Shown: positions 16,933 through 57,900 of the stretch, in pieces
Numbering within the stretch: the first letter of the stretch is position 1
Layout of the letters: each line of letters begins with the position of its first letter
DNA from: an uncultured Draconibacterium sp.
GTDB lineage: Bacteria > Bacteroidota > Bacteroidia > Bacteroidales > Prolixibacteraceae
Direction of reading: 5' to 3'
Length of the DNA: 64,000 nt
Assembly (NCBI RefSeq): GCF_963675585.1
Contig: NZ_OY776411.1
Span: 315,001-379,000 of the forward strand
The notes under the pieces: model-generated
The model's input: the letters and a program-made list of their open reading frames with translations, nothing else
Told to the model about the DNA's origin: nothing
Databases searched by the model: none
Program-made: the position numbers and the translations under genes

Positions 16933-17060
16933 GTAAGTAAACAATTAGAAAATGAAATTATTGCTCAAGATTCAGATTCCTTCCCGGTCACCAATTTTTG
17001 CGGAAAAGGTTTGAAAATTCGGAATTATATTTCACCTTTAAAATTGCAAAAGAAATTTTT

Positions 17061-37498: not shown

Positions 37499-37529
37499 TG
37501 TTTGATTTTTTTTCGTTTTTGATATTCAA

Positions 37530-38141: not shown

Positions 38142-38142
38142 T

Positions 38143-38745: not shown

Positions 38746-38770
38746 TCTTATAATTTTTTAATGTTTAAAA

Positions 38771-39307: not shown

Positions 39308-39326
39308 TTTATTGAATTTTACGGAA

Positions 39327-40268
39327 TTAGTATAAATATCGGGTTATCTGTCCGGCTTCAACCATTATAAAACGGAACATTAAACCGCCAAACAAAATAA
39401 GTACGGGTGGCAACCATTTCGGAACGTGAAATCCCCAGATTTCCAAGGTTTCCAGAACAGCAGGAAATACAAGCCCCAACAGAACCACAAATACCCAAAA
39501 ACTTACGGTAAAAGGACCACCCAGGAACAATTTAGCTGCTTCGATACTGGTTTCCGAACCTGCCAAAAATCCCATAAAAAGGTGAATAATCAGGAAGATC
39601 TCAACAAAGATAAAGACCAAATCAATTCGACTTAATATTTTCCGTTCGGCCGCATCTTTACTCATCCAAATTGTTGCAGCCAATCCTGTTGAAAATCCTG
39701 AGACAAGAAACAATGGCCCAAGTATGGATGTATTCCAAAGTGGGCGGGCGTTAAATGCCGATAAAAGAATACCGGTGTAAACTCCGAGTATAATTGCATA
39801 GATCATCATTATCCACGCCAAGGGAACACGTTGTTTTATTACAAATGCTTCAAATTTGTCCAGAAACTTAAACTTCCAATCCCACCAGGGCAAAATTTCT
39901 TTCATATAACTGGCTACCCAAATCAGCGACAATGGAGTAATAATCATCAATGTCCAGGCGCCCCATCCCATTGGAGATTCCAAACGAATGGTGGTATACA
40001 ACTGCCAGAAATAGAGTTTGTGTTTTAAATCCCAGAACAATGCGCCAAGACCAAGTACAAGTGCTATTGGAGCCAATAAAGGCGCCCACTTTACGGCGGT
40101 CTGCATTTCTTTTTCCTTACCTCTAACTACAAAATAACCGGCAAAAAACAGAATACCTGCAGCCAATCCACCCAAAAATAAATAAAGGGGAATTTGCCAA
40201 TGCCAGATTTTTAAGAATGGATCAATATTCGGTATATTTCGTCCACTAACAAATAATTCTTCTTTCAT
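39327..40268 (-). CDS. psrC: NrfD/PsrC-like quinone-interacting membrane subunit
   Basis: A 313-residue protein with eight predicted helices. The N-terminal KIWHWQIPLYLFLGGLAAGI is the typical NrfD/PsrC start; later come GVYTGILLSAFNARPLWN and the Glu/Asn-bearing helices near the quinone site. It contains no haem ligand pattern, as expected for this family. With the ferredoxin-like and molybdopterin subunits just upstream it forms a PsrABC-type complex linking the quinone pool to a periplasmic sulfur substrate. Symbol by analogy; polysulfide, thiosulfate or another substrate is possible. Confidence 0.88.
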   Translation of the reverse strand: MKEELFVSGRNIPNIDPFLKIWHWQIPLYLFLGGLAAGILFFAGYFVVRGKEKEMQTAVKWAPLLAPIALVLGLGALFWDLKHKLYFWQLYTTIRLESPMGWGAWTLMIITPLSLIWVASYMKEILPWWDWKFKFLDKFEAFVIKQRVPLAWIMMIYAIILGVYTGILLSAFNARPLWNTSILGPLFLVSGFSTGLAATIWMSKDAAERKILSRIDLVFIFVEIFLIIHLFMGFLAGSETSIEAAKLFLGGPFTVSFWVFVVLLGLVFPAVLETLEIWGFHVPKWLPPVLILFGGLMFRFIMVEAGQITRYLY

Positions 40269-40286
40269 TTTGTTCTAGTTTATTTT

Positions 40287-40820
40287 TTAGGTAAGAAAAT
40301 ATAGTTGTGGTTTTGTACCGGCTTCCGGAGCCAGAACTTTCCATTTGCGATCTTTTAATGCCAATGAAACAGCACTGTTTGGATCGTCTAAATCGCCAAA
40401 ATGTAAACAGCTTGTAGGACAAACGTCTACACAGGCAGGATTTTGTCCTTTTTCAACGCGATGAATACAAAAAGTACATTTATCAACGTGTCCATCAGGA
40501 TGTGGATAACGTGCATCGTACGGGCACGACTCAATGCAGGCACCGCAGCCAATACATTTATGCGGCGTTACCAAAACCACTCCGCCGTCAACAATATGAC
40601 TTGCTCCTGTTGGGCAACAACGCACACAAGGCGAATTGTCGCAATGGTTACAACGCTCGGAACGAAACTCCAGGCTCAAACTTGGATAGGTTCCATCTAC
40701 TCTCTCCACGATCCAGTCACGGCAGTAACCGTGCGGAACATTATTCTCTGTTTGACAGGCAACTACACAGTCGCCACATCCGACACATTTTTTTGTGTCT
40801 ATTGCCATTGCATATCTCAT
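40287..40820 (-). CDS. psrB: Four-cluster ferredoxin subunit (PsrB/NrfC-like)
   Basis: A 177-residue electron-transfer subunit with four cysteine groups for [4Fe-4S] clusters: CVGCGDCVVACQ, CNHCDNSPCVRCCP, CIGCGACIESCP and CTFCIHRVEKGQNPACVDVC. This order is typical of the DmsB/PsrB/NrfC family. No signal peptide is needed, as such subunits travel with the Tat-exported catalytic partner. Its ATG overlaps the stop codon of the catalytic gene by 4 bases, so translation is coupled. Confidence 0.93.
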   Translation of the reverse strand: MRYAMAIDTKKCVGCGDCVVACQTENNVPHGYCRDWIVERVDGTYPSLSLEFRSERCNHCDNSPCVRCCPTGASHIVDGGVVLVTPHKCIGCGACIESCPYDARYPHPDGHVDKCTFCIHRVEKGQNPACVDVCPTSCLHFGDLDDPNSAVSLALKDRKWKVLAPEAGTKPQLYFLT

Positions 40821-43072: not shown

Positions 43073-43172
43073 TCTTCTACTATATTTTGAGCTAAACTTT
43101 AAGTTCTTTTTATTCAAAATAATATGGGAATATCAAAAACCATAAAGCTACTTTCATTATATAAAAACTAGT

Positions 43173-43200
43173 ATATCTAAATATTTACAGAATTAGATAT
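43173..43200. promoter_or_regulatory. 8-bp inverted repeat at the psrA transcription start
   Basis: ATATCTAA (43173-43180) and TTAGATAT (43193-43200) are exact reverse complements with a 12-base spacer. It lies just downstream of the psrA -7 box (43216-43209), where a bound repressor would block initiation. Confidence 0.5.
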
Positions 43201-43208
43201 TCAGGTGG

Positions 43209-43216
43209 CAAATATA
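43209..43216 (-). promoter_or_regulatory. -7 box of the psrABC-yeeE-rhodanese operon
   Basis: On the minus strand TATATTTG matches TAnnTTTG exactly. It would give a leader of about 130 bases before the ATG at 43072. No TTG at the ideal upstream distance. Confidence 0.5.
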
Positions 43217-43357
43217 GAAAGTAAAACTGGAAAAAGTAAGGGACAAAACCAATTTGAAACCGTTAAAAATAAGCCACTTGCAGCATTACTCAATAAACTA
43301 CAAATGTTCATAACTACTTATGCGTACTGCCCTTGAAGAAACAAATGCACGTGAATT

Positions 43358-43387
43358 ATATCGAAATAAATTACTCCATTTCGATAT
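43358..43387. promoter_or_regulatory. 10-bp perfect inverted repeat in the divergent region
   Basis: ATATCGAAAT (43358-43367) and ATTTCGATAT (43378-43387) are exact reverse complements with a 10-base spacer, so centres of the arms are two helical turns apart. That spacing suits a dimeric regulator or two dimers. It is about 140 bases upstream of the Rieske -7 box. It could also be a hairpin in an unannotated RNA. Confidence 0.5.
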
Positions 43388-43527
43388 CAACTATGTTATA
43401 AAACAGTGGTCTTATGTTTTTTTCATTTAAAAAAATGAATAAGAAATCAGTTCCAGTTATTGTAAAATAAAAATCTCCCACAAACGCAATTCAAAATGAT
43501 TCAATTCTTTTGATGTTTTCAATTTAT

Positions 43528-43535
43528 TACTTTTG
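43528..43535 (+). promoter_or_regulatory. -7 box of the Rieske/cytochrome b operon
   Basis: TACTTTTG matches TAnnTTTG and ends 13 bases before the ATG at 43549. TTG at 43510-43512 is 15 bases upstream of it, slightly close. The box lies inside a longer open frame, which argues for the ATG at 43549 as the true start. Confidence 0.5.
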
Positions 43536-43548
43536 TTTCGTTAAAAAT

Positions 43549-43947
43549 ATGGAGATGACATCAAATACCAGACGAATATTTTTTAAAATAGCGGTGCTTG
43601 CGATAGCTGCTTTTTTTGTGTTCATCTGGAATAAACTCATCCTGCAACATTTAAACACAATACAACATTCAAAAACGGTGGTTCCGTTTAATAAAAACAA
43701 GGTGGTTTCGTTTTACGACAATTACATAGTTGTTAATCAAAACGAAACAACCACTGTGCTGAGTACCCGGTGTTCGCACCTGGGATGTAAAATCAATGAG
43801 CTTGAAAACGGGAAATTAGTTTGCCCATGCCATGGTTCGGAATACGATTTAAGCGGAAAAGTAATAAAAGGGCCGGCTTTTAAAAACCTTGAAGTAATTC
43901 CTTCGAAAGTAATTTCAAATGGAGAAAGTATTGAAATCGGAAACTAA
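43549..43947 (+). CDS. Rieske [2Fe-2S] protein
   Basis: A 132-residue protein with an N-terminal membrane anchor (IFFKIAVLAIAAFFVFIW) and a small Rieske domain. The cluster motifs are CSHLGC and CPCHGSEYD, giving two His and two Cys ligands plus the extra Cys pair that forms the disulfide of high-potential Rieske proteins. The domain is minimal, without the extra loops of bc1 proteins. Its 3' end overlaps the start of the cytochrome b/c gene by 29 bases, so they form a quinol-oxidising pair. It accepts electrons from quinol on the periplasmic side. Confidence 0.93.
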   Translation: MEMTSNTRRIFFKIAVLAIAAFFVFIWNKLILQHLNTIQHSKTVVPFNKNKVVSFYDNYIVVNQNETTTVLSTRCSHLGCKINELENGKLVCPCHGSEYDLSGKVIKGPAFKNLEVIPSKVISNGESIEIGN

Positions 43948-46648
43948 AGCCAAAAAGTGGAAAAACAAATCCACCTTTGGAACGTATGCCATTGCCATGT
44001 TTTGGCTGGTACTTGTTTCAGGCATCTTTTTGGCTGTTCCCTTCGATGTTGAATCTCCTTATTTAAGTGTAAGTACCATTGCGGTGAGCAATCCATGGGC
44101 TTCCTTAATTCGCAATATTCATTACTGGAGTTCGCAATTCTTTTTGATTTTGACACTGATTCATTTGTACGATCATTTTCATTACAAAAAACGAATAGGC
44201 TTAAAAAAAGGAGTTGCTTTTCGCCTTAGTATTGGAGTATTGATTCTATTTTTAGCCATGTTAACGGGCTTCCTTTTAAAAGGAGATGCCGACAGTGAAC
44301 AAGCACGTCAAATATTGCAAACACTGGCCGAACGCGTCCCCCTTATTGGCAAAGCACTGGCTTTTTCTCTAATCGGATCTTCTGACAGCTACCAGCTTAT
44401 TTATGTACATCACATAGCAACATTTACCGTTTTTGTTGGCGTTATTGTGGTTGAACACAGTAAATTAATCTGGCCACGTTACACCGATTTTATCTATTCG
44501 TTTTTAGGGGTTCTTGCTATTAGTTATTTTTTGAGTGCGCCTTTACACGACAACCTTAATCCAACCGTGAAAGGCCCGTGGTATTTTGTTGGTTTTCAGG
44601 AGATTTTGCATTGGCTAAGCCATCCCGAATGGTCAGTTTTTATGTTCCTTATTCTAGTACTTCTGGTTTACCTTGTAAGTACCGGGAAAAAGAAGGTTTC
44701 GTATTTTACCAAACGAGGATTACTTGTTTTCACTGCATTTTATCTTCTGCTCACTGTTATTGGATTATTTTTTAGAGGAGAGCGTTGGGAATGGACGTAT
44801 CCGGGGAAAATTAATTACAGTTACAGTGTACTTCATAATTTTAAATCGCCAGGCATAAAATTTTCACCTGATTTTAATTCTGCTGAAATTTCAAATGCCG
44901 CAGTAATCCAGGGACGAAAAGAAAGTTGTTTGGCCTGCCACACCGAAACTACCGGGTTTAGTGCCTCGCATTCGCCCGAAGCAATTGGATGTGCCTCCTG
45001 CCACGGAGGGAATCCCTTTGCAACGGCAAAAACACAAGCTCACCGAAACATGATCCTGATTCCGGGAAACCTGACAACGGCACGACAGAGTTGTGGAACA
45101 ACCCAGTGCCACCCAGAAATTGTAGAACGTGTGCCCACGGGATTAATGTCGACTTTGAGCGGAATGATCAGTGTTGATCGCTTTGTGTTTAACGAACAGG
45201 ATAACCCCGATCAGCTCACCGATGTGCACCAGCTTGGAAACTCGGCAGCCGACGAGCACCTTCGGAATTTATGCGTGCGATGTCACCTGGGAAATCCAAA
45301 AACGGAATATGGGCCGGTTAACGAATCGAGCCGGGGCGGTGGCTGTTTGGCCTGCCATCTGAATTACAGTACTGATGCAAAAAATGAACTGCCTTTGAGT
45401 AAAACACAAATAGTTAAAGCACATCCTACCGTTAACCTGCAGGTTTCAAACGATCATTGTTTTGGTTGTCACAGTCGTTCGGGTCGCATTTCAACCAATT
45501 ATGAAGGCTGGCACGAAACAACGCTCGAAAAAGAACAAATGCCGGATAGCAGCAACTACCGCCTGATTGAAGATTCACGTGTATTTATTAAAAAGCAGGA
45601 AGACGTTCACCATAAACTTGGACTTGAATGTATTGACTGCCATCATTCGTACGAATTAATGGGCGACGGGAACCTGTATAAACACCAGGAAAATCAACAG
45701 GATGTTGCCTGTGCCGACTGTCACATTCAAGGAAAGCCAACTACCATAAAAGCAGAAAACCTGGACAATGAATCGGCACTGATTGCTGCACTTCGGTTTG
45801 GATCAATCGCAGAAAAAGAATTTCTGGTGACTAAAAAGCACAAGCATGCGCTTGTAAATACATTTGTTGAAAACGATACTGCATTTTTTCTGAAGAAGAA
45901 CAGTGGTGAAAAGATGGTTTTAAAAGCTCCGGCTAGTGTTTGTGTGCGTAACAATGCACACAGTAACTTATCGTGTTCCAGTTGCCATACTTCGTGGGCA
46001 CCCACTTGTATTGGCTGCCACAATTTGTACGATTCGGAAGAGCCCGGTTACAACATGATAAAAAACGAAGAGCAGAAAGGAAGCTGGGTGGAACTGGTTG
46101 GTGATTACATGGCCAAACAACCAACTCTGGGACTAAGAAAATCGGCAGAAGGCGACGAAATTATTCCGGTTGTTCCGGGAATGATTCTAACGATTGATAA
46201 AACAGCCTATCCCGGGAACGAGAATGATCCGGCTATTTTTCATCGATTGTATGCGCCAAGTGCACCACATACAACTTCGGCAAAAGGCAGAAGCTGTAAA
46301 AGCTGCCACAACAATCCGTTGGCCATTGGATTTGGAGAAGGCACCTTAAATTACATGATTGAACGGAACGAGGGACGATGGAAATTTGAAGCTTTTTATG
46401 AAAACGATAAACACGATAATTTACCGGCCGATGCCTGGACCGGATTTCTGCAAAACCGGACAGGAAATGTATCGACCCGCAGTGATGTTTTCCCATTTAC
46501 TGTTGAACAACAAAAAAAGATTCTTACCGCCGGAAGCTGTTTAACCTGTCATGCTGAAGATTCAGAAGTAATGAAAGCGAGCCTCGAGAATTTTGAGAAA
46601 CTGCTACAAAACCGAAGCAAAAAATGCGTTCTGCCGGTGTGGAAATAA
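43919..46648 (+). CDS. Cytochrome b fused to a dodecahaem cytochrome c
   Basis: A 909-residue fusion. Residues 1-~295 are a cytochrome b with about eight helices; haem-ligand pairs are H68-x13-H82 and H165-x14-H180 (b6-type spacing), and GPWYFVGF near 220 replaces the PEWY of the quinol site. Residues ~330-909 are periplasmic and carry twelve c-type haem sites: eleven CXXCH (CLACH, CASCH, CVRCH, CLACH, CFGCH, CIDCH, CADCH, CSSCH, CIGCH, CKSCH, CLTCH) and one CX4CH (CGTTQCH). The Rieske gene overlaps its start. Predicted role: quinol oxidation and delivery of electrons to a periplasmic acceptor; it could run in reverse. The acceptor is unknown. Confidence 0.9.
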   Translation: MEKVLKSETKAKKWKNKSTFGTYAIAMFWLVLVSGIFLAVPFDVESPYLSVSTIAVSNPWASLIRNIHYWSSQFFLILTLIHLYDHFHYKKRIGLKKGVAFRLSIGVLILFLAMLTGFLLKGDADSEQARQILQTLAERVPLIGKALAFSLIGSSDSYQLIYVHHIATFTVFVGVIVVEHSKLIWPRYTDFIYSFLGVLAISYFLSAPLHDNLNPTVKGPWYFVGFQEILHWLSHPEWSVFMFLILVLLVYLVSTGKKKVSYFTKRGLLVFTAFYLLLTVIGLFFRGERWEWTYPGKINYSYSVLHNFKSPGIKFSPDFNSAEISNAAVIQGRKESCLACHTETTGFSASHSPEAIGCASCHGGNPFATAKTQAHRNMILIPGNLTTARQSCGTTQCHPEIVERVPTGLMSTLSGMISVDRFVFNEQDNPDQLTDVHQLGNSAADEHLRNLCVRCHLGNPKTEYGPVNESSRGGGCLACHLNYSTDAKNELPLSKTQIVKAHPTVNLQVSNDHCFGCHSRSGRISTNYEGWHETTLEKEQMPDSSNYRLIEDSRVFIKKQEDVHHKLGLECIDCHHSYELMGDGNLYKHQENQQDVACADCHIQGKPTTIKAENLDNESALIAALRFGSIAEKEFLVTKKHKHALVNTFVENDTAFFLKKNSGEKMVLKAPASVCVRNNAHSNLSCSSCHTSWAPTCIGCHNLYDSEEPGYNMIKNEEQKGSWVELVGDYMAKQPTLGLRKSAEGDEIIPVVPGMILTIDKTAYPGNENDPAIFHRLYAPSAPHTTSAKGRSCKSCHNNPLAIGFGEGTLNYMIERNEGRWKFEAFYENDKHDNLPADAWTGFLQNRTGNVSTRSDVFPFTVEQQKKILTAGSCLTCHAEDSEVMKASLENFEKLLQNRSKKCVLPVWK

Positions 46649-46680
46649 ATCCCTTTTATCAATAAATAATTCATTCAAGA

Positions 46681-46726
46681 AAAAAGCGCCACTCTCAATC
46701 CTCCGACTAAAAATGACGCTTCTTTT
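46681..46726. terminator. Possible bidirectional terminator
   Basis: AAAAAGCG (46681-46688) faces CGCTTCTTTT (46717-46726) across 28 bases, giving a 5-bp AAGCG/CGCTT core extended by A/T pairs with one bulge. It lies between the convergent ends of the cytochrome gene and the DsrE2 gene. The large loop lowers confidence. Confidence 0.4.
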
Positions 46727-46741
46727 CGAATCAACTAAGTT

Positions 46742-47245
46742 CTAGGTAAAAATAATTTGAGTACCGTCGCCACCCGACATGGCGTATAAATCGCCTACCG
46801 TAATAATTGCTTTTACGTGTTCACTTAAATCGTCCATTGTAAGTTTAAACATATCGGCGGCCATTTTGCAGGCATAAATTTCGCCGCCGCCTGCAGTAAT
46901 CATATCCAAAAACTCGTCAACCGGAGGTACATCAAGCTCATCCATTTGTTTTTTCATCATTGCCGACACACCTGCTTCCACACCGGGTATTACCCCAAGC
47001 AAGGTAGGAAAAGGAAGTCCTCCCGGCATCCGCATTCCAGGGTTTCCAACTACTCCGGTATGTAGTTTATTCATTTGTTTTTTTGTAATCGCATCGAGTC
47101 CAAAAAAAGTAAAAAACAGTTTTGCTTCAATGCCTTCCATTACGGCACCATTTGCCATAATTAAACCTGCGTACACATCTTCGATGCTGGCCTTTGCCAC
47201 AATTATCATTACCTTTTTTAAAGGCGTTTCTTTTACTTCAGTCAT
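46742..47245 (-). CDS. DsrE/DsrF/DrsH-like (DsrE2-type) sulfur carrier
   Basis: A 167-residue protein of the DsrE-like superfamily. It begins KKVMIIVAKASIEDVYAGLI with the usual Rossmann-like strand and helix, continues EAKLFFTFFGLDAITKK and ends in GDGTQIIFT. The likely persulfide-carrying Cys lies in GGGEIYACKMAADMF, the position used in DsrE2 proteins. These proteins hold sulfane sulfur and pass it to TusA- or DsrC-like partners. It is the last gene of the SQR operon, 21 bases after the TusE/DsrC-like gene. No dsrAB genes are in the window. Confidence 0.85.
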   Translation of the reverse strand: MTEVKETPLKKVMIIVAKASIEDVYAGLIMANGAVMEGIEAKLFFTFFGLDAITKKQMNKLHTGVVGNPGMRMPGGLPFPTLLGVIPGVEAGVSAMMKKQMDELDVPPVDEFLDMITAGGGEIYACKMAADMFKLTMDDLSEHVKAIITVGDLYAMSGGDGTQIIFT

Positions 47246-47266
47246 AATTTTAGGTTTTTTCGATTA

Positions 47267-47578
47267 TTAAACACAACTGGCTGGTTTGGCAATTCCTGCA
47301 TATTTCGACGAGAGTTTTAAAGGTCCGCCCGGGAAAAGCTGATACAAACCTTTTATGTCGGTTATACCCGATTTTCCAACTTTACGAATGGTTAACGACT
47401 CGCCCGCAGCACTTTTTTCGCGCAGGTATTCCAGCACTTCGTAGTGTTTATCGGATAACTCTATTCCATCTTCTTTTGCCATTTCAGCAGCCAGATCTTT
47501 ATTCCAATCGTCCTTGTTTAACAAGTACCCTTCTTCATTCACTTCAACTGTCTTTCCTGCAAATGTTTTTTCAGCCAT
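47267..47578 (-). CDS. TusE/DsrC-family sulfur carrier
   Basis: A 103-residue protein of the DsrC/TusE family: NEEGYLLNKDDWNKDLAAEM near the start, HYEVLEYLREK in the helical core, LYQLFPGGPLKLSSKYAGIA and a C-terminal arm ending KPASCV. The penultimate Cys102 is the conserved CysA that carries the persulfide. The second arm cysteine (CysB, about eleven residues earlier) found in true DsrC is absent, so it is TusE-like in that respect. In context it would take sulfur from the DsrE2 protein or SQR product. Small size is normal for the family. Confidence 0.9.
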   Translation of the reverse strand: MAEKTFAGKTVEVNEEGYLLNKDDWNKDLAAEMAKEDGIELSDKHYEVLEYLREKSAAGESLTIRKVGKSGITDIKGLYQLFPGGPLKLSSKYAGIAKPASCV

Positions 47579-47598
47579 AATTTTAGTTTTAAATTGTT

Positions 47599-48276
47599 TT
47601 ATTGATTTGAATTTGTTTCGCTTGCCATGTTTTTCATAAAGGTCACAAAGAATCCAAGTGCCCGTTTCATTTCCGGTTTATTCATTTCGCGAATTACTTT
47701 GAATATGGAATACTCCGGAATGTTTTCAGTTTCAATGCTCTTGTATATTTTAAATCCGTTATTCAATGCAGACATCATTTCGGGTTGTGTTGCCGATCGA
47801 ACTGTTTCCATAATGGTTACTACATTATCAGCCAGTTCGCGAACATCACTCGGATTATAATGCGAAATAATATTGTCGAATATTAATCCGGCTTCGGCAA
47901 AAAATTCGAAGTATCCTTTTTCGTCAAACTCCTGCAACTTTTTACTGAAATCGATAACCACCTCATTAAAAATTGGTGAAGCATCTTTTACAAAGTCATT
48001 CATACTTTCAAAAAGCTCCAGAAATTTATTCATGTTGTCAACATTTCGTAAAACCCGAAGCATTAGTCCTTTTACATCTTCCAAATCGAGATGTACCATT
48101 CGATTGTCCAGTTCTTCCACTGCCGTGTCGTACATATCTTTTCCAACTATCGACACATCGGCGAACAAGTCTTCCAGCTCGTTGGTTTTTAGCCGTTGCT
48201 GGTTCACATATTCCAGTAATAAATCAACTTTCTGATTTAATTCGGATATTTGCGTTTGTAATGTTTTTTCTTCCAT
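47599..48276 (-). CDS. DUF1641 protein
   Basis: A 225-residue, mostly helical, acidic protein without a signal peptide. The N-terminus has a heptad-like coiled coil (ELNQKVDLLLEYVNQQRLKT). The last third contains PSDVRELADNVVTIMETVRS and FKVIREMNKPEMKRALGF, which matches the DUF1641 region. Members are repeatedly found beside sulfide:quinone reductase-like flavoproteins, as here, but their role is not known. It lies 12 bases after the SQR gene. Confidence 0.8.
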   Translation of the reverse strand: MEEKTLQTQISELNQKVDLLLEYVNQQRLKTNELEDLFADVSIVGKDMYDTAVEELDNRMVHLDLEDVKGLMLRVLRNVDNMNKFLELFESMNDFVKDASPIFNEVVIDFSKKLQEFDEKGYFEFFAEAGLIFDNIISHYNPSDVRELADNVVTIMETVRSATQPEMMSALNNGFKIYKSIETENIPEYSIFKVIREMNKPEMKRALGFFVTFMKNMASETNSNQ

Positions 48277-48288
48277 TTTCGGACTTTT

Positions 48289-49527
48289 TTATTCGTTCAC
48301 CTTCTTTTTTCCTGCCATGGTCATTAATGGTTCAACGGGCAACTCTTTTCCTTTTAAAAGAATGTGCCAGTAAATCCATCGAAACATTACTTTTCCGTAG
48401 TGATTGATTTTGGTATTTTTCAGTAAACCAAAAGGCCCGATCCCAGGAAGTGGGAAAGTTCCCGGAAGCGGTTCGGTATCGTAATTAAAATCGATAAGTG
48501 CTCCCTTTCCATTTCCGGTTTCGATGTAACAATTGGCGTGTCCGTCGAATTTTGCATGCAATGGTCTTCCTTCAATGGCACTCATCAAATTCTCGAAAAG
48601 TATTTCGGCGGCAAAGTGGGCAACCGAACCTGCTTTTGAAGTAGGAATATTTGACGCATCGCCCAATACAAATATATTTTCGTGTTTTTGTGATTGAAGC
48701 GTATGTTTATCGGTTGGAACAAAATTCATATCGTCGCCCAGGCCACTGCGTTCTATCATTTCGTCGCCCATATTTACAGGAACCACGGTTAGCACATCAA
48801 AATCAACTTCCTGCTCGTCGTAAGAAATTAGTTTTTTAGTATCGTTGTCAACACGTTCAATGTAAAAATCGGGAATTACTTTTATGTTTTTTTCCTCAAG
48901 CAATTCCGATAACATTTTAGTAGCCACAGGTTTTGTAAAAGCACCGGGCATTGGAGTTACATAAGTAATATCCACTTTATCGCGCATGCCTAAACGCGTG
49001 AAATAAGCATCGGCCAGAAAAACAAATTCGAGTGGTGCCACCGGACATTTATAAGGTAGTTCGGTAATGGCCATTACCAGTTTACCACCTTCCCAGCCTT
49101 TAAAGAATTTCTGAAGAGCAACTGCTCCTTCAACAGTATAAAAATCGAAAATTTCTTTGTACCAGAGTTTGTCTTGTAAACCGGGCGTTTCTCCAGGAAA
49201 GGTTTTGGTGCCGGTGGCAATAATCAGGTAATCGTAATTTAAAACCTGTCCGCCCTGTAAATGCACTTTATTGGCTTCTCCCTCAACTCGGTCAATGGCC
49301 GAATAAATCATTGTAACTCCCGATGGAATAAAATCTGATTTTGGCTTGATAACATCTTCCTTATTATAAATTCCAAAGGGTATAAAAAGAAACCCGGGCT
49401 GGTAATAATGTGTTTTAAACTGGTCAACAATTGTTATACTCCATTCTTCCTTATCCAATGAGCCTCTAAGTTTATTGGCCATCATTGTTCCGGCGGTACC
49501 GGCGCCTAATATCACAAGTTTCTTCAT
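48289..49527 (-). CDS. sqr: Sulfide:quinone oxidoreductase-like flavoprotein
   Basis: A 412-residue FAD protein. N-terminal LVILGAGTAGTMMANKLRG binds the FAD ADP moiety, YDYLIIATGTKT is the second conserved strand, and NIFVLGDASNIPTSKAGS binds the FAD tail. Two cysteines fit the catalytic pair of SQR: C161 in LPYKCPVAPLEF and C333 in GHANCYIETG. The C-terminus (~380-412) has a hydrophobic-amphipathic stretch for membrane binding (WIYWHILL). It should oxidise sulfide to polysulfide or persulfide and reduce quinone at the inner membrane. Leads a four-gene operon with DUF1641, TusE-like and DsrE2 proteins. Confidence 0.9.
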   Translation of the reverse strand: MKKLVILGAGTAGTMMANKLRGSLDKEEWSITIVDQFKTHYYQPGFLFIPFGIYNKEDVIKPKSDFIPSGVTMIYSAIDRVEGEANKVHLQGGQVLNYDYLIIATGTKTFPGETPGLQDKLWYKEIFDFYTVEGAVALQKFFKGWEGGKLVMAITELPYKCPVAPLEFVFLADAYFTRLGMRDKVDITYVTPMPGAFTKPVATKMLSELLEEKNIKVIPDFYIERVDNDTKKLISYDEQEVDFDVLTVVPVNMGDEMIERSGLGDDMNFVPTDKHTLQSQKHENIFVLGDASNIPTSKAGSVAHFAAEILFENLMSAIEGRPLHAKFDGHANCYIETGNGKGALIDFNYDTEPLPGTFPLPGIGPFGLLKNTKINHYGKVMFRWIYWHILLKGKELPVEPLMTMAGKKKVNE

Positions 49528-50404: not shown

Positions 50405-51106
50405 TTACTTTTCAAGAAAATAATTTGTAATACTCTCTGAAATTCTTTCGGTATATTTCTTTTTTAATACATACACATAAACATCTATTTCGTAACCACC
50501 TGTTACTTTGTTTATGTTTTTTAATACCGGTTCCTGCGATGCAGCAACCCAGGGAGAATTAAGCAAAGCAACCACCAGTTTTTTTGTAACTGCGCTCGAT
50601 TTTTCGTTGGTAGAAATGCTAAAGTGTAAAAGCTCTCTTTCCAGATTTGTATTTTCTCCGCTTCGTGAAATTACTTTCGATTTAATTTTTGAATACGGAA
50701 TTGTATCAATACTTCCGCTTTTAGATTTTATATCGAAATTTAAATACCCCAGCTTAACAATCTCTCCTGAAATATTATCAATTTCAAACCTGCTGTTTAA
50801 CTCCAATTTGCGCTGAATTCGCAAAACAATTCCGGCTAAAAAGTCACCAATTACATACCAGCCCGGAATAATAAATACCAGCAGTAAAATGCCAAAACCA
50901 ATAAGCGTAATGTATGCTTCTGCTTCGTAAATTTTACGCATCCCCCACAGCACAAATCCCAGCCACGACGCCAGTTCAACTAACACAAAAAGAATACTCA
51001 GTGAATTTTTCGTGGATTTGGAAAACGGGGCATTTGAATTTAAAAACGACAAAATTCGGTAAAAAGCAAAAAGCCCAATTGCTGCTATTAATATTTTTGT
51101 GATCAT
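50405..51106 (-). CDS. MscS-like mechanosensitive channel protein
   Basis: A 233-residue protein with three hydrophobic segments (~4-20, ~35-55, ~68-90), the last leading into GDFLAGIVLRIQRKLE. Then follows an MscS-type beta domain: FEIDNISGEIVKLGYLNFDI then KSKSGSIDTIPYSKI, and an alpha/beta C-terminal part ending near 230. It is a short MscS form without extra N-terminal helices. The gene starts 4 bases after the giant transporter/NTPase gene, so the two are surely cotranscribed. Together they suggest ion or osmotic control. Confidence 0.78.
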   Translation of the reverse strand: MITKILIAAIGLFAFYRILSFLNSNAPFSKSTKNSLSILFVLVELASWLGFVLWGMRKIYEAEAYITLIGFGILLLVFIIPGWYVIGDFLAGIVLRIQRKLELNSRFEIDNISGEIVKLGYLNFDIKSKSGSIDTIPYSKIKSKVISRSGENTNLERELLHFSISTNEKSSAVTKKLVVALLNSPWVAASQEPVLKNINKVTGGYEIDVYVYVLKKKYTERISESITNYFLEK

Positions 51107-51110
51107 AGTT

Positions 51111-54100
51111 TTAAATTAATCCTTTATCCAAACAAATTTTCACTAAAAATGGCTCTAAATAACGCGACAAGCTGTACGCGCTATTTCCATTTATTTCAAT
51201 CATCCCGGAATTTAAAAGTCCATAAATTTTTTGTTCAGCCTCGTGCTCATTAATGGCAAGTATTCTGGCCAGCTTCGATAAATCAATGTATTTGTGTTGT
51301 ACAAATAATGCAATTAGTATCAGCCACTCATCATTCATATTTTCGAGTGGTTCCATATTTGGCAAAGTTGGTTTTTTAATGTAAACATTTTGCCCCTGCA
51401 CTTTTTCGATATTGGTTAACCAACTATTTATAGCTACCCCCGGATTACCTCCTGAAACCGAAAAATAAGAATTAAACAGAGTTGCTGTTTGTATTTTTGA
51501 AACCGACTCTTCCGACTTATTTTTATATACATAATTTAAGCCACTGGTTTTATGCCGACTCTGAATTAACTGCTGCAGTTTTCTTGCTTCAAAAGGCTTG
51601 CAGTTTATCACGTCCAACATGTCGGCTTCGAGCGAGAATAGTTTATTAATAATGTTATACGAATACTGATTGCAGTTTAAAACAAAGAATGTTTTTTTAC
51701 CAAAGGTTTGAATCAGTTGCACTATTTCATTTATTATTTTACTTCCATCGCTTGTTCGCTCCCACCACAGTTCCAAATCGTTAATAACAACTACACTTTC
51801 GTTTGGTAAACTTCTGAATATTTCAAACGAATCTCCTGTAATTCCAATCGATTTTTGCAAACACAATTCCCAATCTTTCATTTGAACAGATCCGGTTGTC
51901 GGCGCTACAATTGTAAAAACCCGGTCGCTTTTAAACAAATGTTTTGTGCTGTAGCGGGTTAATGCGGTTTTCCCACATCCATGATTTCCAATTATGGCAA
52001 TGGCACCACCATATCCGTTTTTATGTCGCACCACCGCATCTTTAATTCGCGCCAATTCTTTTTCCATTGGCACCCAGAAATCGTCGTTTATAAGCGATTT
52101 GCTGCTAAAAAGGGTACGATAAAAAACAGGTATTTGGGTCAGTACTTTCCCTTTTGGTTTTACCTTTTCTAAAATGTCAAGAATTTGAGCGACACTGGTA
52201 TTTGTATCTGTTTTCTTGTTCAATATTTGTTTGGCCTGAAGAATGCTATCGGTTGAACCATACAGAAGATTAACAATGGTATTGTTTATTGATTTTTGGA
52301 TTGCTTTAAGTCTTTTCACATAGCCCATGCTAAATTTCTTGCTCTTTTCATTACGTAAAAGCGAAGCAATTTTTTTGGCTGAATCGATTATGGAATGTGA
52401 ATAAAGCGGAGACATTGCATTTTTAACCAACTGTTCCGATTTGAACCGAATTCGGTTTATAACTGCGTTAAGTTTTTCCTGCTCACTATTCACTTGTTTT
52501 GAAAGCGAGTTTAAAAACTGGTTTAAATCTTTTTCTACCCACTCATTTTCGTTATGGTGCTCCAGCAAATTATCGGCTCTGAATTTTAAAAGACTGTTTG
52601 CCTCCCTGCATTCTATTCTGCTTTTTTTCACCTGAATATCTAACTGCTCCAATTCGCGGAAGAAAGGTTCGTATAACTCAGTATCGAAATAATATCGTGC
52701 AATTTTATAGGGTTCAACCAGCGCCGAATCTATTTGTTTCAATGTTTCTTCGCTTTGATTGTTGCTTTCCGCCACATTCGCAATTTCAATTTCTTGTGGC
52801 AGTCGTTGTAACAATTCTGAGGTTTTCAGAAACGTTTCCTGGAAAATAAACCGGAATTCGGTTGTGTCGTCAAACAAAACATTTTTTATCACCCCGGAAT
52901 GGTTTTCTCTCCAATTATTAATATTGGCTTGAACCTGAGAAATGGGGGACAACACCTTTTCTGACAGAATAGCATGAACTTTATCTACAAAATTCTGATT
53001 GATGTTATTGATTATTTTCTGTTCCGATAAAATGCGGCAATCAAGATAAAGTGAGTTATTCAACAGATCGACTTTCGATTTCCACTCTTCGGGGAAAATC
53101 TCAACCGCTTCAAGCGGAAGAACATGTTTTACTTTCAACTTTTTATTGATCTCCACCCGAAGATTATCTTGCAATAAATCTTTTCCAATTTCAATGGATT
53201 GATTTCGCACACAGTGCAACAAACCTGATTTACAAGCTTCCATTTGCTGTTGTAAAACCCGGGCGAGCTCAGTAAAATCTTGAAGAATTTGTTCTCGGCG
53301 GCCAAGTATATCCATTTGAGCAGCTGAGTCGCCTTTTAAACGCGATTCGTAACTATCGTTTATTTGAATGATTACATTTTTTAATACCGAATACAAAACC
53401 AGGCTTTGTTGCTCAAACGATTGAAGGTATTTAAGTACCTCCGACATTAATTTAACCTGAAGAGAAACGGATAAAAGCCTACGATAATCTACCTCGACAT
53501 TTTTTTCCTTTTTTGCTTTCGTTATCGTATTTACCAGGATTGTTTCGGGTGTTTCGTGCAAATAATTTCCAATTTTGGTGAGCAATACCGAAATGCCGGT
53601 GGTTAATAGCTGGTTTATCTCAACAGTAATTTTTTCTCCCTCGGTTTCAATATAACTGGTGCTAAAAACTAAAAAAGACTGATGCAGTTTAGAAAAGCTT
53701 TTTTGCAACTGAATGCCTTTTTGTGTAGATAAGGCTTTTTCAATGTTTCTGTTATTTACTTCAAAATATTCTTTAAGTTGATGAACCAACCGCAGTTGAT
53801 TTGATATGGCTTCGTGAAAAGTTTTTTCATAAAAGCTATTTGTAAAGTGCAATACATCCTCATCAAACTTATGAATTCGGGTGTTAATTATTTTGTTCCC
53901 AAGAACCGGAATCGGCAATAATTCTGCAGCCAAAACATCGGGCAAATCAATTTTTGAACGACGTACGGTACTTCCTAAAATATTTATTTCCTCAAATTCG
54001 TTTGAAGGACTTAATACAAGAATACTGGATGGCAAATCTGAAATTTCGCTGACAGTTTTAATATATTGTTCGGTGTAAGAAGCTGTTTTTGGCGAAATCC

Positions 54101-56132
54101 CAAGGATTATAAGATCGGCATTAAGCGATTCAGTGTTAATTATCATTTCCTTGCTTCGCGTACCAAAATCGTCGCTAATTATTTTTACTTCAGCGTCAAT
54201 TCGCTTTTCTTCAAGTAGTGCAAGTGTATTTTTGTATAATTTATCGGTTAATTTATTGTCGTTGTTAATTACCAGTATCCGAATGCTTGCATCTCTCCAG
54301 TCGGCATCAGAAAGAACAAAACGCATTAAGTTTAAGGCAAAACTTAACAACCTGCCCTCTCCATTCCACCAGATATCAATACGTTCCTTTTTCCCGAAAC
54401 CGTTTTGTTTGTCGTAATCAAGGAAAACGGCATTGAGGTTTTTCTTTTTAACATGTGTAAGAATATTCGCCAAGACACCCGCGGAGTTTGTATCGCGGCT
54501 CCACCCCATCATTATGGTATTTGGTTCAAAGCCACTAAAACCATACACATTTGTAACGTTTTTTATTCCGTTTTCGATGGTGTCGCATACAAACTGCCGC
54601 TTAAAAAAATTCGCGCCCGTGCCTTTCAATTGAACTTTTGGAATTGGTTTTGGCTGAATGTATTCATTAGAATTTAGAACGAGTTCGAAATCGGTTAAGG
54701 CTCCCAATTTCCCCGACATGGAAATACCCAATTCGACTAAATGGGGTCTGGCCTGCTCACCGCCGCTAAAAAGTACAATATTAGGTCTCCAGTTTCGTGT
54801 ATTGGTTTTTTCGGCCGACAATTTTAACAGGGCCCGTTTTGCCAGATTTGTCCAGAAACTGCTCCAGGCATCACCGCTTTCCAGTACCAGTTCTTTCCGA
54901 CTGAGATAAAAAAACAGAATTCCCAAAACAACAACAGCACCGGCCAGTGCTATAAAATCAAGTAATATCATTACAATAAATGCCGATACTGCTCCTAAAA
55001 TGCTAACAAATTTTGGAATTTTAAATGCCGGACGAAAGTCTGAACTCGACCAGCTTTCAATAGCTGAAGCCAGATTAAGGAAGGCATAAGTTGTAATAAA
55101 GAACATGGAAACAATTCGGGCAATCACATCTAGCTCTCCAATTAGAATACCGGCTTCGGCAATCACAAAAGCCAATAATAAGGCATTTCGTGGCTCATTG
55201 GTTTTTCCGGTGCCTTTGGCAAATACTTTTGGCGCAATTTTATCCATTGCAATGGCTTGTAAAATACGTGGTGCGCCCAAAATACTACCCAATGCCGACG
55301 ATAAGGTTGCTCCCCAAATGCCAATAATAACCAAGGCCGGAACCAAGGAAATTTTAAACAAAATCTGACTATCGTTTCGAAGCGCCTCGGCATCAACAGT
55401 AAACGCATAAAAAAGGGCTAAGCCAAGATAAACTACAAAGCCAACTCCAACAGCTGCCATGGCGCCAACGGGCAACGATTTTTTAGGGTTTTCCAAATCG
55501 CCCGACATAGACACACCAGCTTCGAAACCGGTAACTGCAGGAAAGAAAATACCAAACAAGAGCATAAACGGTGCAGCATCGGCTAAGGGTTTTAGATGTA
55601 TTTCGGTAGGAGCAAACTCGTGCTTGCCCAAAAATATCGACAACAGTGACAATACGATGGCTGCCATTATAAAATACTGCGATTTTATAGCCAGAGAAGT
55701 ACTGATAAATGTTACTGTGGTTACAACAATTAAAATAATTGTTCCTGTAAGTCGTACTGAATTTATGGAAGTATCGAGGTTCCAATAGCTTAAAAAACTT
55801 TCAGCAAAACCAATCAAGTACAAACTCACACTAAACGACAAGCCAACAAACAGCGCTAGCCCAAGTGTACCACCAATGGGCAAACCAAGGCTTCGCGAAA
55901 TCATAAAATAGGTTCCACCTGTTTTTACTGTTTTATCGGTTGACAACGAGGCCACACTTAAACTGGTTGTAATGGAAATAATGTGTGCAATTACTATAAT
56001 TCCAATTGTATTTATTAAGCCGGCCTGACCAATAATGGTAGGAAAGCGCAAATACATAATAACACCAAGTATTGTTAGAATAGAAGGTGTAAATACTCCA
56101 CTAAAAGTTCCAAATTTTTTAATCTTAGCCAT
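51111..56132 (-). CDS. Giant SLC12-like transporter fused to a helical region, P-loop NTPase and winged-helix-like C-terminus
   Basis: A 1673-residue protein. Residues ~10-430 are a 12-helix SLC12-like transporter (GVIMYLRFPTIIGQAGL, GGTYFMISRSLGLPIGG, SSALGSILGAPRILQA). Residues ~450-730 look like the SLC12 cytosolic domain (RPNIVLFSGGEQARP, IDIWWNGEG, DLIILGISPK). Residues ~780-1350 are long polar helices with coiled-coil character. A P-loop domain follows: Walker A GNHGCGKT (1382-1389) and Walker B VVVIND (D1452). The last ~85 residues (LILIALFVQHKYIDLSKLAR, KIYGLLNSGMIEI) resemble a winged helix. I know no named family with this order. Cotranscribed with the MscS-like gene; own -7 box upstream. 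The frame is intact. Confidence 0.8.
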   Translation of the reverse strand: MAKIKKFGTFSGVFTPSILTILGVIMYLRFPTIIGQAGLINTIGIIVIAHIISITTSLSVASLSTDKTVKTGGTYFMISRSLGLPIGGTLGLALFVGLSFSVSLYLIGFAESFLSYWNLDTSINSVRLTGTIILIVVTTVTFISTSLAIKSQYFIMAAIVLSLLSIFLGKHEFAPTEIHLKPLADAAPFMLLFGIFFPAVTGFEAGVSMSGDLENPKKSLPVGAMAAVGVGFVVYLGLALFYAFTVDAEALRNDSQILFKISLVPALVIIGIWGATLSSALGSILGAPRILQAIAMDKIAPKVFAKGTGKTNEPRNALLLAFVIAEAGILIGELDVIARIVSMFFITTYAFLNLASAIESWSSSDFRPAFKIPKFVSILGAVSAFIVMILLDFIALAGAVVVLGILFFYLSRKELVLESGDAWSSFWTNLAKRALLKLSAEKTNTRNWRPNIVLFSGGEQARPHLVELGISMSGKLGALTDFELVLNSNEYIQPKPIPKVQLKGTGANFFKRQFVCDTIENGIKNVTNVYGFSGFEPNTIMMGWSRDTNSAGVLANILTHVKKKNLNAVFLDYDKQNGFGKKERIDIWWNGEGRLLSFALNLMRFVLSDADWRDASIRILVINNDNKLTDKLYKNTLALLEEKRIDAEVKIISDDFGTRSKEMIINTESLNADLIILGISPKTASYTEQYIKTVSEISDLPSSILVLSPSNEFEEINILGSTVRRSKIDLPDVLAAELLPIPVLGNKIINTRIHKFDEDVLHFTNSFYEKTFHEAISNQLRLVHQLKEYFEVNNRNIEKALSTQKGIQLQKSFSKLHQSFLVFSTSYIETEGEKITVEINQLLTTGISVLLTKIGNYLHETPETILVNTITKAKKEKNVEVDYRRLLSVSLQVKLMSEVLKYLQSFEQQSLVLYSVLKNVIIQINDSYESRLKGDSAAQMDILGRREQILQDFTELARVLQQQMEACKSGLLHCVRNQSIEIGKDLLQDNLRVEINKKLKVKHVLPLEAVEIFPEEWKSKVDLLNNSLYLDCRILSEQKIINNINQNFVDKVHAILSEKVLSPISQVQANINNWRENHSGVIKNVLFDDTTEFRFIFQETFLKTSELLQRLPQEIEIANVAESNNQSEETLKQIDSALVEPYKIARYYFDTELYEPFFRELEQLDIQVKKSRIECREANSLLKFRADNLLEHHNENEWVEKDLNQFLNSLSKQVNSEQEKLNAVINRIRFKSEQLVKNAMSPLYSHSIIDSAKKIASLLRNEKSKKFSMGYVKRLKAIQKSINNTIVNLLYGSTDSILQAKQILNKKTDTNTSVAQILDILEKVKPKGKVLTQIPVFYRTLFSSKSLINDDFWVPMEKELARIKDAVVRHKNGYGGAIAIIGNHGCGKTALTRYSTKHLFKSDRVFTIVAPTTGSVQMKDWELCLQKSIGITGDSFEIFRSLPNESVVVINDLELWWERTSDGSKIINEIVQLIQTFGKKTFFVLNCNQYSYNIINKLFSLEADMLDVINCKPFEARKLQQLIQSRHKTSGLNYVYKNKSEESVSKIQTATLFNSYFSVSGGNPGVAINSWLTNIEKVQGQNVYIKKPTLPNMEPLENMNDEWLILIALFVQHKYIDLSKLARILAINEHEAEQKIYGLLNSGMIEINGNSAYSLSRYLEPFLVKICLDKGLI

Positions 56133-57396: not shown

Positions 57397-57900
57397 ATGA
57401 AAACAAAAAACAATGTTCAGCAAACAATTTTAAAATCAATGGCAGTAGTATTTAGTGTGGCTTTAATTAGCTTAACTGTAAATGCCCAGGATTTTTGGCA
57501 ATCAATTTATGAAAACAACGGATTCAAAGACATCGCAATGGCAATGGTTGATGTAAACACTGAAAACACTGTTGAATCGACCAACACAGACATGTTTTCG
57601 TACTACACAGAAGAAACTGAAGAATCTCTGGAAATTGAAAACTGGATGATGGATGAAAACAGTTTTGGAACATTCGTAACAATGGAAACTGAAAATGAAA
57701 GGCCGCTTGAATTAGAAGGCTGGATGACCAACGACAGCTACTTTAATAACGCATCTGAAATGTTTATTGAAGAAACTGAAAACGAACTGGAGATTGAAGA
57801 CTGGATGCTTAACGAGAATTCATTTAAAGCGTCCGGGGAAGTTGAGTCAGCATTAGAACTGGAAAGCTGGATGCTATCCGAAAATATCTGGAAAGTATAA
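57397..57900 (+). CDS. Secreted acidic protein with four LE-x-E-x-WM repeats
   Basis: A 167-residue protein I cannot assign to a family. A signal peptide (MAVVFSVALISLTVNAQ) is followed by an acidic mature part with four repeats at 23-26 residue spacing: SLEIENWMMDENSF, PLELEGWMTNDSYF, ELEIEDWMLNENSF and ALELESWMLSENIW. Each would form an amphipathic segment with a conserved Trp-Met. It has a consensus promoter, a start-site dyad and a strong Shine-Dalgarno site. PadR and PspC genes follow within 60 bases each, so it may be an envelope-stress effector or sensor. No cysteines. Function is unknown. Confidence 0.8.
   Translation: MKTKNNVQQTILKSMAVVFSVALISLTVNAQDFWQSIYENNGFKDIAMAMVDVNTENTVESTNTDMFSYYTEETEESLEIENWMMDENSFGTFVTMETENERPLELEGWMTNDSYFNNASEMFIEETENELEIEDWMLNENSFKASGEVESALELESWMLSENIWKV

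Follow-up and report, generated by a model that had tools for sequence, protein, structure and literature searches.

A bacterial SLC12-like transporter fused to an AAA+ NTPase and paired with an MscS-like channel gene: a possible module for ion and cell-volume control

In bacterial osmoregulation, uptake transporters and release channels are normally viewed as separate systems. What is to be made of a locus in which an SLC12-like transporter continues into an NTPase and is followed by the gene of an MscS-like channel? Such a locus lies in the window analysed here, a stretch of 64,000 nucleotides from an uncultured Draconibacterium sp. (contig NZ_OY776411.1, positions 315,001 to 379,000). The adjacency of the two genes, found in many bacteria, suggests a switch, so far undescribed, by which salt uptake and salt release are balanced against each other.

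The fusion gene (51111..56132) has 1673 codons and not a single internal stop, as claimed in an earlier reading made from the letters alone (the sequence-only reading). Both genes of the pair lie on the minus strand, which that reading had left unstated. In the order of the protein, the fusion consists of an SLC12 transmembrane domain (about residues 1-415; 54888..56132), an SLC12-type cytosolic domain (about residues 416-700; 54033..54887), two long-helix repeats (about residues 747-1000, 53133..53894, and about residues 1007-1275, 52308..53114), an AAA+ core with lid (about residues 1328-1585; 51378..52151) and a winged-helix end (about residues 1594-1673; 51114..51353). The ORF list, Pfam, a sequence search of the PDB and a structure model of the tail agree on this architecture, which had been correctly proposed in outline. 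The channel gene (50405..51106; 233 amino acids) is separated from the fusion by 4 bases (51107-51110), also as claimed.

In the transmembrane domain, residues 13-411 match Pfam AA_permease with 152 bits, against a cut-off of 24.6. In the PDB sequence search the best matches were KCC and NKCC cotransporters (for KCC4, E 1.2e-76 over the stretches 2-179 and 186-653); the SLC12 homology spans both membrane and cytosolic domains, the phmmer match to KCC chains reaching residue 653. The NCBIfam model TIGR00930 (K-Cl cotransporter) gave 371.2 bits, which is under its curated cut-off of 953.4, and the fusion is not claimed as a member of that family. The positions of the K+ and Cl- sites were taken from published descriptions (PMC7035313; PMC7200160). 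In the window fusion the K+ site is represented by Y75 in TM3 (65/66 SLC12-fused rows) and by P198 and T201 in TM6 (both 66/66), and the Tyr of the Cl- site in TM10 by Y349 (66/66). The NKCC1 Na+ site comprises five residues, Leu297, Trp300, Ala610, Ser613 and Ser614 (PMC7035313). Its TM8 part is present as A275 (66/66), S278 (66/66) and S279 (65/66); in the TM1 part, as placed via the KCC4 alignment, Leu19 fits and the Trp is replaced by Leu22. An amino acid permease would fit the Pfam name, yet the PDB matches and the site residues point to cation-chloride cotransport. Thus, where the sequence-only reading had allowed K/Na/Cl or amino acids as cargo, these residues favour Na+/K+/Cl- over amino acids. 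It should be noted that several ion-site residues are missing from two divergent fusions that are not among the 66 rows: L028 lacks Y75, T201, both TM8 Ser and Y349 (the last position being Phe), and L031 lacks T201, A275 and both TM8 Ser and has an Asn at the position of D1452. Tail-less relatives on plasmids carry the label 'amino acid permease' in public records. Large fusion proteins may likewise carry only this label there, and the present reading would give them a testable role.

The tail was modelled as a monomer (mean pLDDT 85.1). The model predicts long helices at model residues 32-609, i.e. 747-1324 of the fusion, followed by an AAA+ domain and a winged helix. The two long-helix repeats are homologous to each other (hhalign probability 96.6, E 6.9e-10). 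Pfam AAA_16 matches residues 1357-1406 with 22.9 bits, which is below the gathering score of 32.6. Fold matches span model residues 617-956, with the alignment to 1w5t_C extending to residue 957 of the model, and the NTPase is best described as a predicted ORC/Cdc6-like AAA+ domain, where the relation to ORC/Cdc6 would be one of fold resemblance only. Besides the AAA+ fold, both Walker motifs are present, at the residues given in the sequence-only reading: Walker A is GNHGCGKT (residues 1382-1389; 51966..51989, minus strand), and VVVIND (1447-1452) is the Walker B part of VVVINDLELWW (1447-1457; 51762..51794, minus strand). K1388 is found in 72/73 SLC12-fused rows, two of which are from the same contig, and D1452, W1456 and W1457 in 73/73 each; rows below 85 bits were dropped from this table (L100), and a separate one holds 11 rows from fragments and 3 rows that lack MscS. 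The Walker A Lys is present in 36 of 46 stand-alone rows and in none of the 12 rows of the lineage in which MscS lies upstream; hydrolysis is therefore not universal in the family. The helical and AAA+ parts are homologous across four other types. A tree of the family omits the 11 fragment rows, 42 of 72 distinct type I rows and 26 of 46 type II rows. In STAND NTPases the winged helix is followed by sensor repeats. The tail model contains none, the fusion protein ending with its winged helix.

The 233-residue partner is recognised by Pfam MS_channel_2nd with 30.2 bits (cut-off 20.2). Its model (pLDDT 89.7) consists of three membrane helices, a beta domain and an alpha/beta domain, and its best Foldseek match is MscS (6pwn; E 2.8e-12, TMq 0.51). 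Tension-gated MscS requires a TM3 pore helix rich in Gly and Ala. In the fusion-clade channels these two residues make up 12.6% of TM3A (75 proteins) versus 31.1% in 57 MscS partners of stand-alone NTPases. The pore helix of the clade carries the motif W-[FY]-x-x-[RK]-D-x-x-A-G, with Gly replacing Arg/Lys in the window protein. Because the pore helix of the fusion clade is not rich in Gly/Ala, gating by a partner seems likelier than gating by tension, and with so atypical a TM3 the protein may not conduct. The suggestion that it releases solutes upon hypo-osmotic shock thus does not follow from its sequence.

How general is the arrangement? The SLC12-NTPase fusion recurs in several phyla, and the thought that the window holds a single odd fusion was rejected. 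From a GTDB scan 80 loci were fetched: among the 69 loci with SLC12 on the same ORF as the NTPase, 66 have the MscS-like gene directly downstream (including L135, with MscS on both sides). These adjacencies were scored with HMMs built from family members and a gap limit of 160 bp. Since only 10 PF00924 matches are found in this genome, yet 66/69 loci have the adjacency, chance is very unlikely. In a relatives set MscS adjoins 9 of 10 fused loci, three of which are from the same contigs as loci of the GTDB scan. The sets share some rows: L152 is from the same contig as L067, and the contigs of L102, L138 and L140 agree in length with those of L022, L024 and L023. In a phylum set, in which the tail mostly occurs without SLC12, MscS is adjacent in 72 of 78 further loci (3 SLC12-fused), and 12 loci have the reversed gene order with the pair still together. 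In Myxococcota it adjoins the NTPase gene in 19/20 fetched regions; three of these assignments (L258, L269, L270) are weak or involve strong overlap, predicted ORFs overlapping in GC-rich genomes, and in the one miss (L265) the nearest MscS on the same strand is 3.5 kb away. The tie to MscS asserted for the window is thus a conserved adjacency across phyla.

There are exceptions. In L180 and L027 the fetched stretch holds the fusion but gave no MscS match, and none was obtained in the fetched loci of L086 and L202 (exchanger gene adjacent). At L086 a 187-residue protein with a sub-threshold match to EI24 occupies the MscS position. Of the further misses, L101, L201 and L203 are cut by contig ends and L100 is a short weak match. 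At L126 the MscS gene lies 416 bp off, at L157 there is none, and at L162 the sequence ends 103 bp on. Among close relatives of the window's genome the NTPase family is unevenly distributed, with 14 of 120 genomes of the same taxonomic family carrying it, and in the phylum of the G497 MAG the only positive among 148 sampled genomes was G497 itself.

The transporter is less constant than the channel. At six loci a Na+/H+-exchanger-type antiporter is fused to the NTPase and a TrkH gene lies beyond MscS (Pfam-checked in L076, by custom models in the others). The fused antiporter matches Pfam Na_H_Exchanger with 68.3 bits (cut-off 26.2); the nearest NCBIfam name, 'CPA2', reaches 36.4 bits versus a cut-off of 238.3. 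In Myxococcota an antiporter-like fusion is found in 10/20 regions, one of them weak (38 bits), and the membrane N-terminus of L258, compared with the fused-antiporter set, gave an hhalign value of 75.3 and is of uncertain identity. At L079 TrkA and TrkH adjoin the NTPase, a protein of 1465 residues whose N-terminus was not recognised by any antiporter or SLC12 model applied to it; at L171 TrkH is found at 230 bp. In 6 of 80 loci (5 SLC12-fused, 4 Pfam-checked) the NTPase gene is preceded, at a distance of 50-207 bp, by a divergent exchanger gene, in one case next to the split gene of L118. Finally, many NTPase-MscS pairs have no fused transporter and, according to the custom models, none in the fetched flanks. 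Gene content indicates that the constant core is the NTPase-MscS pair, with SLC12 as one of several swapped monovalent-cation transporters.

The best explanation, to which we give slightly better than even chances, is a two-protein module for the control of ions and cell volume. The SLC12 domain, with its NKCC-like site residues, would move Na+, K+ and Cl- together, most simply inwards and at the expense of the Na+ gradient. The AAA+ protein fused to it would bind nucleotide, its state reflecting ATP/ADP or another nucleotide signal, and the two long-helix repeats would relay this state in two directions, to the transporter and to the MscS-like channel, and so keep uptake and release from running at the same time. 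This pair of NTPase and MscS is found across bacteria in combination with SLC12, with an antiporter of the Na+/H+-exchanger type or with TrkH/TrkA. A published osmoadaptation model (PMC4230888) is composed of Trk, antiporters of the Na+/H+ and Kef types, and MscS. Of the two-gene volume-control system envisaged by the sequence-only reading, the direction towards ion homeostasis is kept, on the grounds of the site residues and the swapped transporters; its centre moves to the NTPase and MscS, with SLC12 exchangeable. A bolder version, which we hold to be rather unlikely, is a supercomplex in which an AAA+ ring under the ring-shaped MscS-like channel makes a pore that is ATP-gated and no longer tension-gated, helical arms hold SLC12, antiporter or Trk, and one nucleotide switch flips between salt uptake and release. 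The NTPase-MscS pair would then serve prokaryotes in general as a hub of volume control, with different cation transporters plugged in repeatedly.

The same observations can be read differently. The SLC12 domain could mainly be a sensor ('transceptor') with little net transport of its own: the NTPase would detect whether ions are bound to it and open or close the MscS-like channel accordingly. That the channel is the constant partner and the transporter exchangeable, that many pairs lack a fused transporter and have none detected in the fetched flanks, and that L028 and L031 retain the SLC12 domain and the MscS neighbour despite their ion-site losses are all in line with such a role. Because of these losses our confidence in the control module was slightly lowered and that in a sensor slightly raised. 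A sensor is nevertheless unlikely, for the residues of the substrate sites are conserved in 65-66 of 66 rows, as for a working transporter, and the proteins that replace SLC12 match ordinary carrier families. Alternatively, transporter and channel could share an operon simply because both are needed in the same osmotic conditions, the NTPase regulating the transporter alone. The small gaps between the paired genes fit such sharing, but the pair persists across phyla with the transporter swapped or absent and, in the 12 loci mentioned, with the gene order reversed, which makes co-regulation only quite improbable.

An anti-phage or suicide module, in which a STAND-like AAA+ sensor opens the MscS-like pore on infection, is considered more doubtful still. 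STAND proteins have a winged helix after the AAA+ domain, as has the fusion. The Foldseek list includes Apaf-1 and the plant NRC3 resistosome, and the VIA-align list includes chain 8bob_C (title: negative regulation of maltose system), which we take to be the STAND protein MalT. There is also a weak PADLOC match to mad8 (15.5 bits with the whole protein, 17.8 with the tail); with E values of up to 1 admitted, the two genes of the pair gave no other. Moreover, nearly all carriers of one taxonomic family (44 of 77 genomes) have one match per genome, five fetched loci share a neighbour that is presumably uridine kinase-like, the genes flanking the window pair look metabolic, and the swapped partners are ion transporters. 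A defence role was therefore set aside. Least credible of all, to the point of being negligible, is the joining of unrelated genes by assembly or gene calling, which the sequence-only reading had named as a possible refutation: fusions of similar length occur in many independent genomes and nothing speaking for an artefact was found, although in five MAG loci (L118, L125, L128, L167, L169) the fusion is divided between two ORFs; these loci, kept as found, are taken to reflect sequence errors or real splits.

The interest of the ion and cell-volume module lies in a single NTPase family that is linked to a channel gene by conserved adjacency and to a cation carrier by fusion, with several combinations spread over several phyla. 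If the coupling holds, SLC12 transporters and MscS-family channels would both turn out to be controlled in a new way, and the locus would provide a bacterial NKCC-like protein for the genetic study of NKCC transport and volume regulation.

In the open-access full-text literature searched, no description of a system of this form was found, in agreement with the sequence-only reading, and the arrangement of fusion and MscS is so far undescribed within it. It resembles several known systems in part. In Pseudo-Type I-B CoCoNuT islands an NTPase lies close to a mechanosensitive channel and to transporters (PMC11090510); these are McrB-type GTPase islands in Bacillus, and the passages of that paper on them describe no fixed two-gene pair or transporter fusion. 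With NKCC1 (SLC12A2) and the KCCs the fusion shares, by sequence, the membrane and cytosolic domains, the Tyr/Pro/Thr of the K+ site, the Cl- site Tyr in TM10 and the ATLSS stretch in TM8 of the NKCC1 Na+ site. It differs from them in TM1, where an Asn is replaced by Thr and the Trp of the NKCC1 Na+ site by Leu, in about 970 extra residues (helix repeats, AAA+ domain, winged helix) and in the pairing with MscS. Tail-less prokaryotic cation-chloride cotransporters, such as those encoded by three further SLC12-like genes in the same genome, have the SLC12 domain and the site residues but no C-terminal extension. Downstream of one of the three (L222), an MscS gene lies two genes away.

The partner has the three membrane helices, the beta domain and the alpha/beta domain of MscS, YnaI and MscK, from which the fusion clade departs in its Gly/Ala-poor TM3A and its own pore-helix motif. 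Like ORC/Cdc6 and STAND-type AAA+ proteins, the tail has an AAA+ core with Walker A and B and a winged helix; unlike them, it is fused to transporters, carries its helix repeats N-terminal of the AAA+ core and has nothing after the winged helix. TrkA and KtrA are nucleotide-sensing rings on TrkH and KtrB, cytosolic sensors that set K+ uptake. To these the likeness would be a functional analogy only, since the tail is predicted to have an AAA+ fold rather than the TrkA-N Rossmann fold and is tied to MscS; indeed, at L079 TrkA and the NTPase are found together.

The fusion protein of the window is encoded on the minus strand by an ORF of 1673 codons (51111-56132), which is followed 4 bases after its frame by an ORF of 233 codons for the MscS-like protein (50405-51106, minus strand). 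Residues 13-411 of the long protein are matched by an AA_permease-type domain (Pfam, 152 bits), and the top PDB sequence matches are KCC and NKCC chains (E 1.2e-76); because the matched stretches reach residue 653, the SLC12-type cytosolic domain is also present. Residues 1357-1406 give a sub-threshold match to AAA_16 (Pfam), and the 233-aa protein contains an MscS beta domain (Pfam) and shows an MscS fold in the predicted structure. The two frames and these domain matches bear out the sequence-only reading of an SLC12-like/NTPase fusion with an MscS-like gene 4 bases on. The tail, consisting of long-helix repeats, an ORC/Cdc6-like AAA+ domain and a winged helix, occurs only once in the source genome (6.03 Mb, 4 contigs), in which three more SLC12-like genes, all without tail, are found.

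The surroundings deserve a few remarks. A second SLC12-like gene of the window (16998-19277, plus strand; 759 aa, without tail) is not followed by an MscS gene, and an SLC12 paralogue of the same genome (L222 6347-10462) has a same-strand MscS gene two genes downstream, which is a looser SLC12-MscS link. Upstream of what we take to be PadR-like and PspC-like genes lies the gene of a small protein (57397-57900, plus strand) that probably has a signal peptide and in which a motif of the LE-x-E-x-WM type occurs in four imperfect copies. The stretch 36860-49527 appears to be a sulfur/molybdopterin redox cluster, in which cytochrome b plus multihaem c lie at 43919-46648 and a flavoprotein at 48289-49527; parts of it adjoin the fusion in locus L022, too.

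The pairing of NTPase and MscS-like genes is widespread. The pattern D[LM][EA][LTI]WWE[RK], which is biased towards the fusion clade, was run against the GTDB contig collection and yielded 158 stretches, of which 143 were relatives and 80 were kept. A same-strand MscS-like ORF lies within 160 bp in 76/80 of these loci, and in 69/80 the NTPase ORF also holds the SLC12 domain. In the proposed search for genomes with the fusion beside an MscS-like gene, the gene is directly downstream in 66 of the 69 SLC12-fused loci, the remaining three being L126 (MscS at 416 bp), L162 (reaching the contig end) and L180 (no MscS-like gene found within the locus). Among the relatives, 13/14 loci have an MscS-like neighbour (none was found in L027), including 9/10 fused loci, three of the 10 being the same contigs as in the GTDB scan. 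In the window's phylum the two genes are adjacent in 70/76 loci (73 genomes), or in 72/78 (75 genomes; NTPase with SLC12 in 3) when two more loci checked from short flanks are counted, and in Myxococcota in 19/20 regions (18 genomes) picked from profile matches in the Plesiocystis phylum sample, three of the 19 calls being weak or strongly overlapping. Since the source genome has 10 PF00924 matches among some thousands of genes, chance adjacency should be well under one percent. In L135 (3010-10150), MscS-like genes lie on both sides of the SLC12 fusion. The NTPase ORFs beside MscS in L074, L193, L215, L216, L219, L220 and L221 are short (298-433 aa in the ORF calls); no helical-repeat match was found in them or in their same-strand upstream ORFs, and they are therefore perhaps a minimal version.

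At E 1e-5, the tail was matched in 15/101 relatives, own genome counted. The AAA+-part profile matches 76/395 genomes sampled from the window's phylum, 44/77 of one family, 46/140 from the phylum of Plesiocystis and 1/148 from that of the MAG G497, the one being G497 itself; the fusion-only profile matches 14/120 genomes of the window's family. Lineages labelled in the GTDB-scan records are Bacteroidota lineages, Ignavibacteria, Calditrichota, Latescibacterota and Myxococcota (e.g., Enhygromyxa salina, Plesiocystis pacifica), besides three MAGs whose labels read proteobacteria (two) or Deltaproteobacteria (one). The record labels suggest marine or saline settings for several carriers.

The transporter is exchangeable. 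The tail is fused to SLC12 (type I, as in the window), stands alone with MscS downstream (type II, about 1000 aa) or upstream (type III), is fused to an Na_H_Exchanger domain (type IV, about 1500 aa, 6 loci), lies beside TrkA and TrkH (type V, L079) or occurs in a shorter form with an Na_H_Exchanger-type gene (type VI, 4 loci, in 2 of which a weak MscS-like match lies between the NTPase and exchanger genes). Profile alignments cover both the helical and the AAA+ part in types II to V, and the AAA+ part only in type VI. Type IV, verified by Pfam for L076 and for the other loci by models built from these loci, has the order 414-422 aa membrane protein, antiporter fusion, MscS and TrkH. Among NCBIfam names, CPA2 comes nearest to the fused antiporter, with a score well under the cut-off of that model. 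The 414-422 aa protein, which precedes the antiporter fusion in L076, L077, L078, L090, L091 and L199, is by profile a homologue of the fused antiporter domains (hhalign 97.3); Pfam scans of the L076 and L077 proteins gave no confident family. Of the 20 Myxococcota regions, 10 have an antiporter-like fusion, one of them weakly, and one an SLC12 fusion. In 6/80 GTDB loci a divergent exchanger gene lies upstream of the NTPase gene at a distance of 50-207 bp, five of these loci being SLC12-fused and one (L178) having an ORF without SLC12; L118 has such a gene beside a split fusion gene, and in L171 TrkH is at 230 bp. Pfam confirmed exchanger/TrkH neighbours in L118, L119, L129, L134, L139 and L171. 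In the MscS-upstream lineage (L081-L083, L087-L089, L092-L095, L099, L200) the Walker A lysine is absent in 12/12 rows.

A quick tree was built from 93 rows without fragments (30/72 distinct type I, 20/46 type II, and such rows of the other types as there were). All its type I rows lie to the same side of one branch (SH-aLRT 95), with the Myxococcota SLC12 row adjoining them (support 88). The tree implies at least 6 changes in fusion state and has long branches on several rows.

The ion sites of the SLC12 part are well conserved when compared with the K+, Cl- and Na+ site residues of cotransporters described in PMC7035313 and PMC7200160. The equivalents of the K+ site Tyr, Pro and Thr are Y75 (65/66 rows), P198 (66/66) and T201 (66/66), that of the Cl- site Tyr is Y349 (66/66), and those of Ala610, Ser613 and Ser614 of the NKCC1 Na+ site are A275 (66/66), S278 (66/66) and S279 (65/66). 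In KCCs the two Ser are replaced by Gly/Ala (PMC7200160). Because these residues are kept, the window type is predicted from sequence to be a Na+-K+-Cl- symporter. In TM1, the Asn of known cotransporters is Thr in the window protein, but this residue contributes through its main-chain carbonyl (PMC7035313); the Trp that NKCC1 has in TM1 as part of its Na+ site corresponds to Leu here when aligned through KCC4. Tail-less SLC12 paralogues have the same site residues, and the tail is therefore not needed for them. Two divergent fusions of the relatives set, outside the 66 rows, differ: Y75, T201, Y349 and both Ser are gone in L028, and T201, A275 and both Ser in L031, whereas the residues are kept in the remaining eight rows of the alignment. 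L028 and L031 are possibly sensor-only forms, and some fusion members may only sense. Both (L028 66-5024; L031 5967-11006) retain the MscS neighbour and the Walker A Lys.

MscS gating requires Gly/Ala packing of TM3. In TM3A, Gly plus Ala amount to 12.6% over 75 fusion-clade partners, a few of them from cut or split loci, versus 31.1% over 57 partners of stand-alone NTPases. This weakens a reading of the channel as a hypo-osmotic valve. TM3A of the fusion-clade partners carries the motif W-[FY]-x-x-[RK]-D-x-x-A-G (W 56/75, D 69/75, G 72/75), with Gly in place of Arg/Lys in the window channel. Since the TM3 Gly/Ala are lost in the clade in which the partner is kept, these sequences fit a channel gated by its partner NTPase.

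For the demonstrated architecture, NTPase-MscS pairing, transporter swapping and motifs, we infer that the NTPase would be a shared controller of import carrier and export channel, whose nucleotide state may decide which of the two is active; readings of the system as a sensor, as an operon only or as defence compete with this. Shared control is read as volume and ion control because Trk, Na+/H+ exchange, Kef and MscS are the parts of the osmoadaptation model published in PMC4230888. A full-text search of open-access literature found no system that matches this arrangement. To our knowledge, no known system has it. The component parts belong to known superfamilies, and the apparent novelty lies in the system, i.e., in the arrangement of NTPase, MscS and transporter, rather than in its domains.
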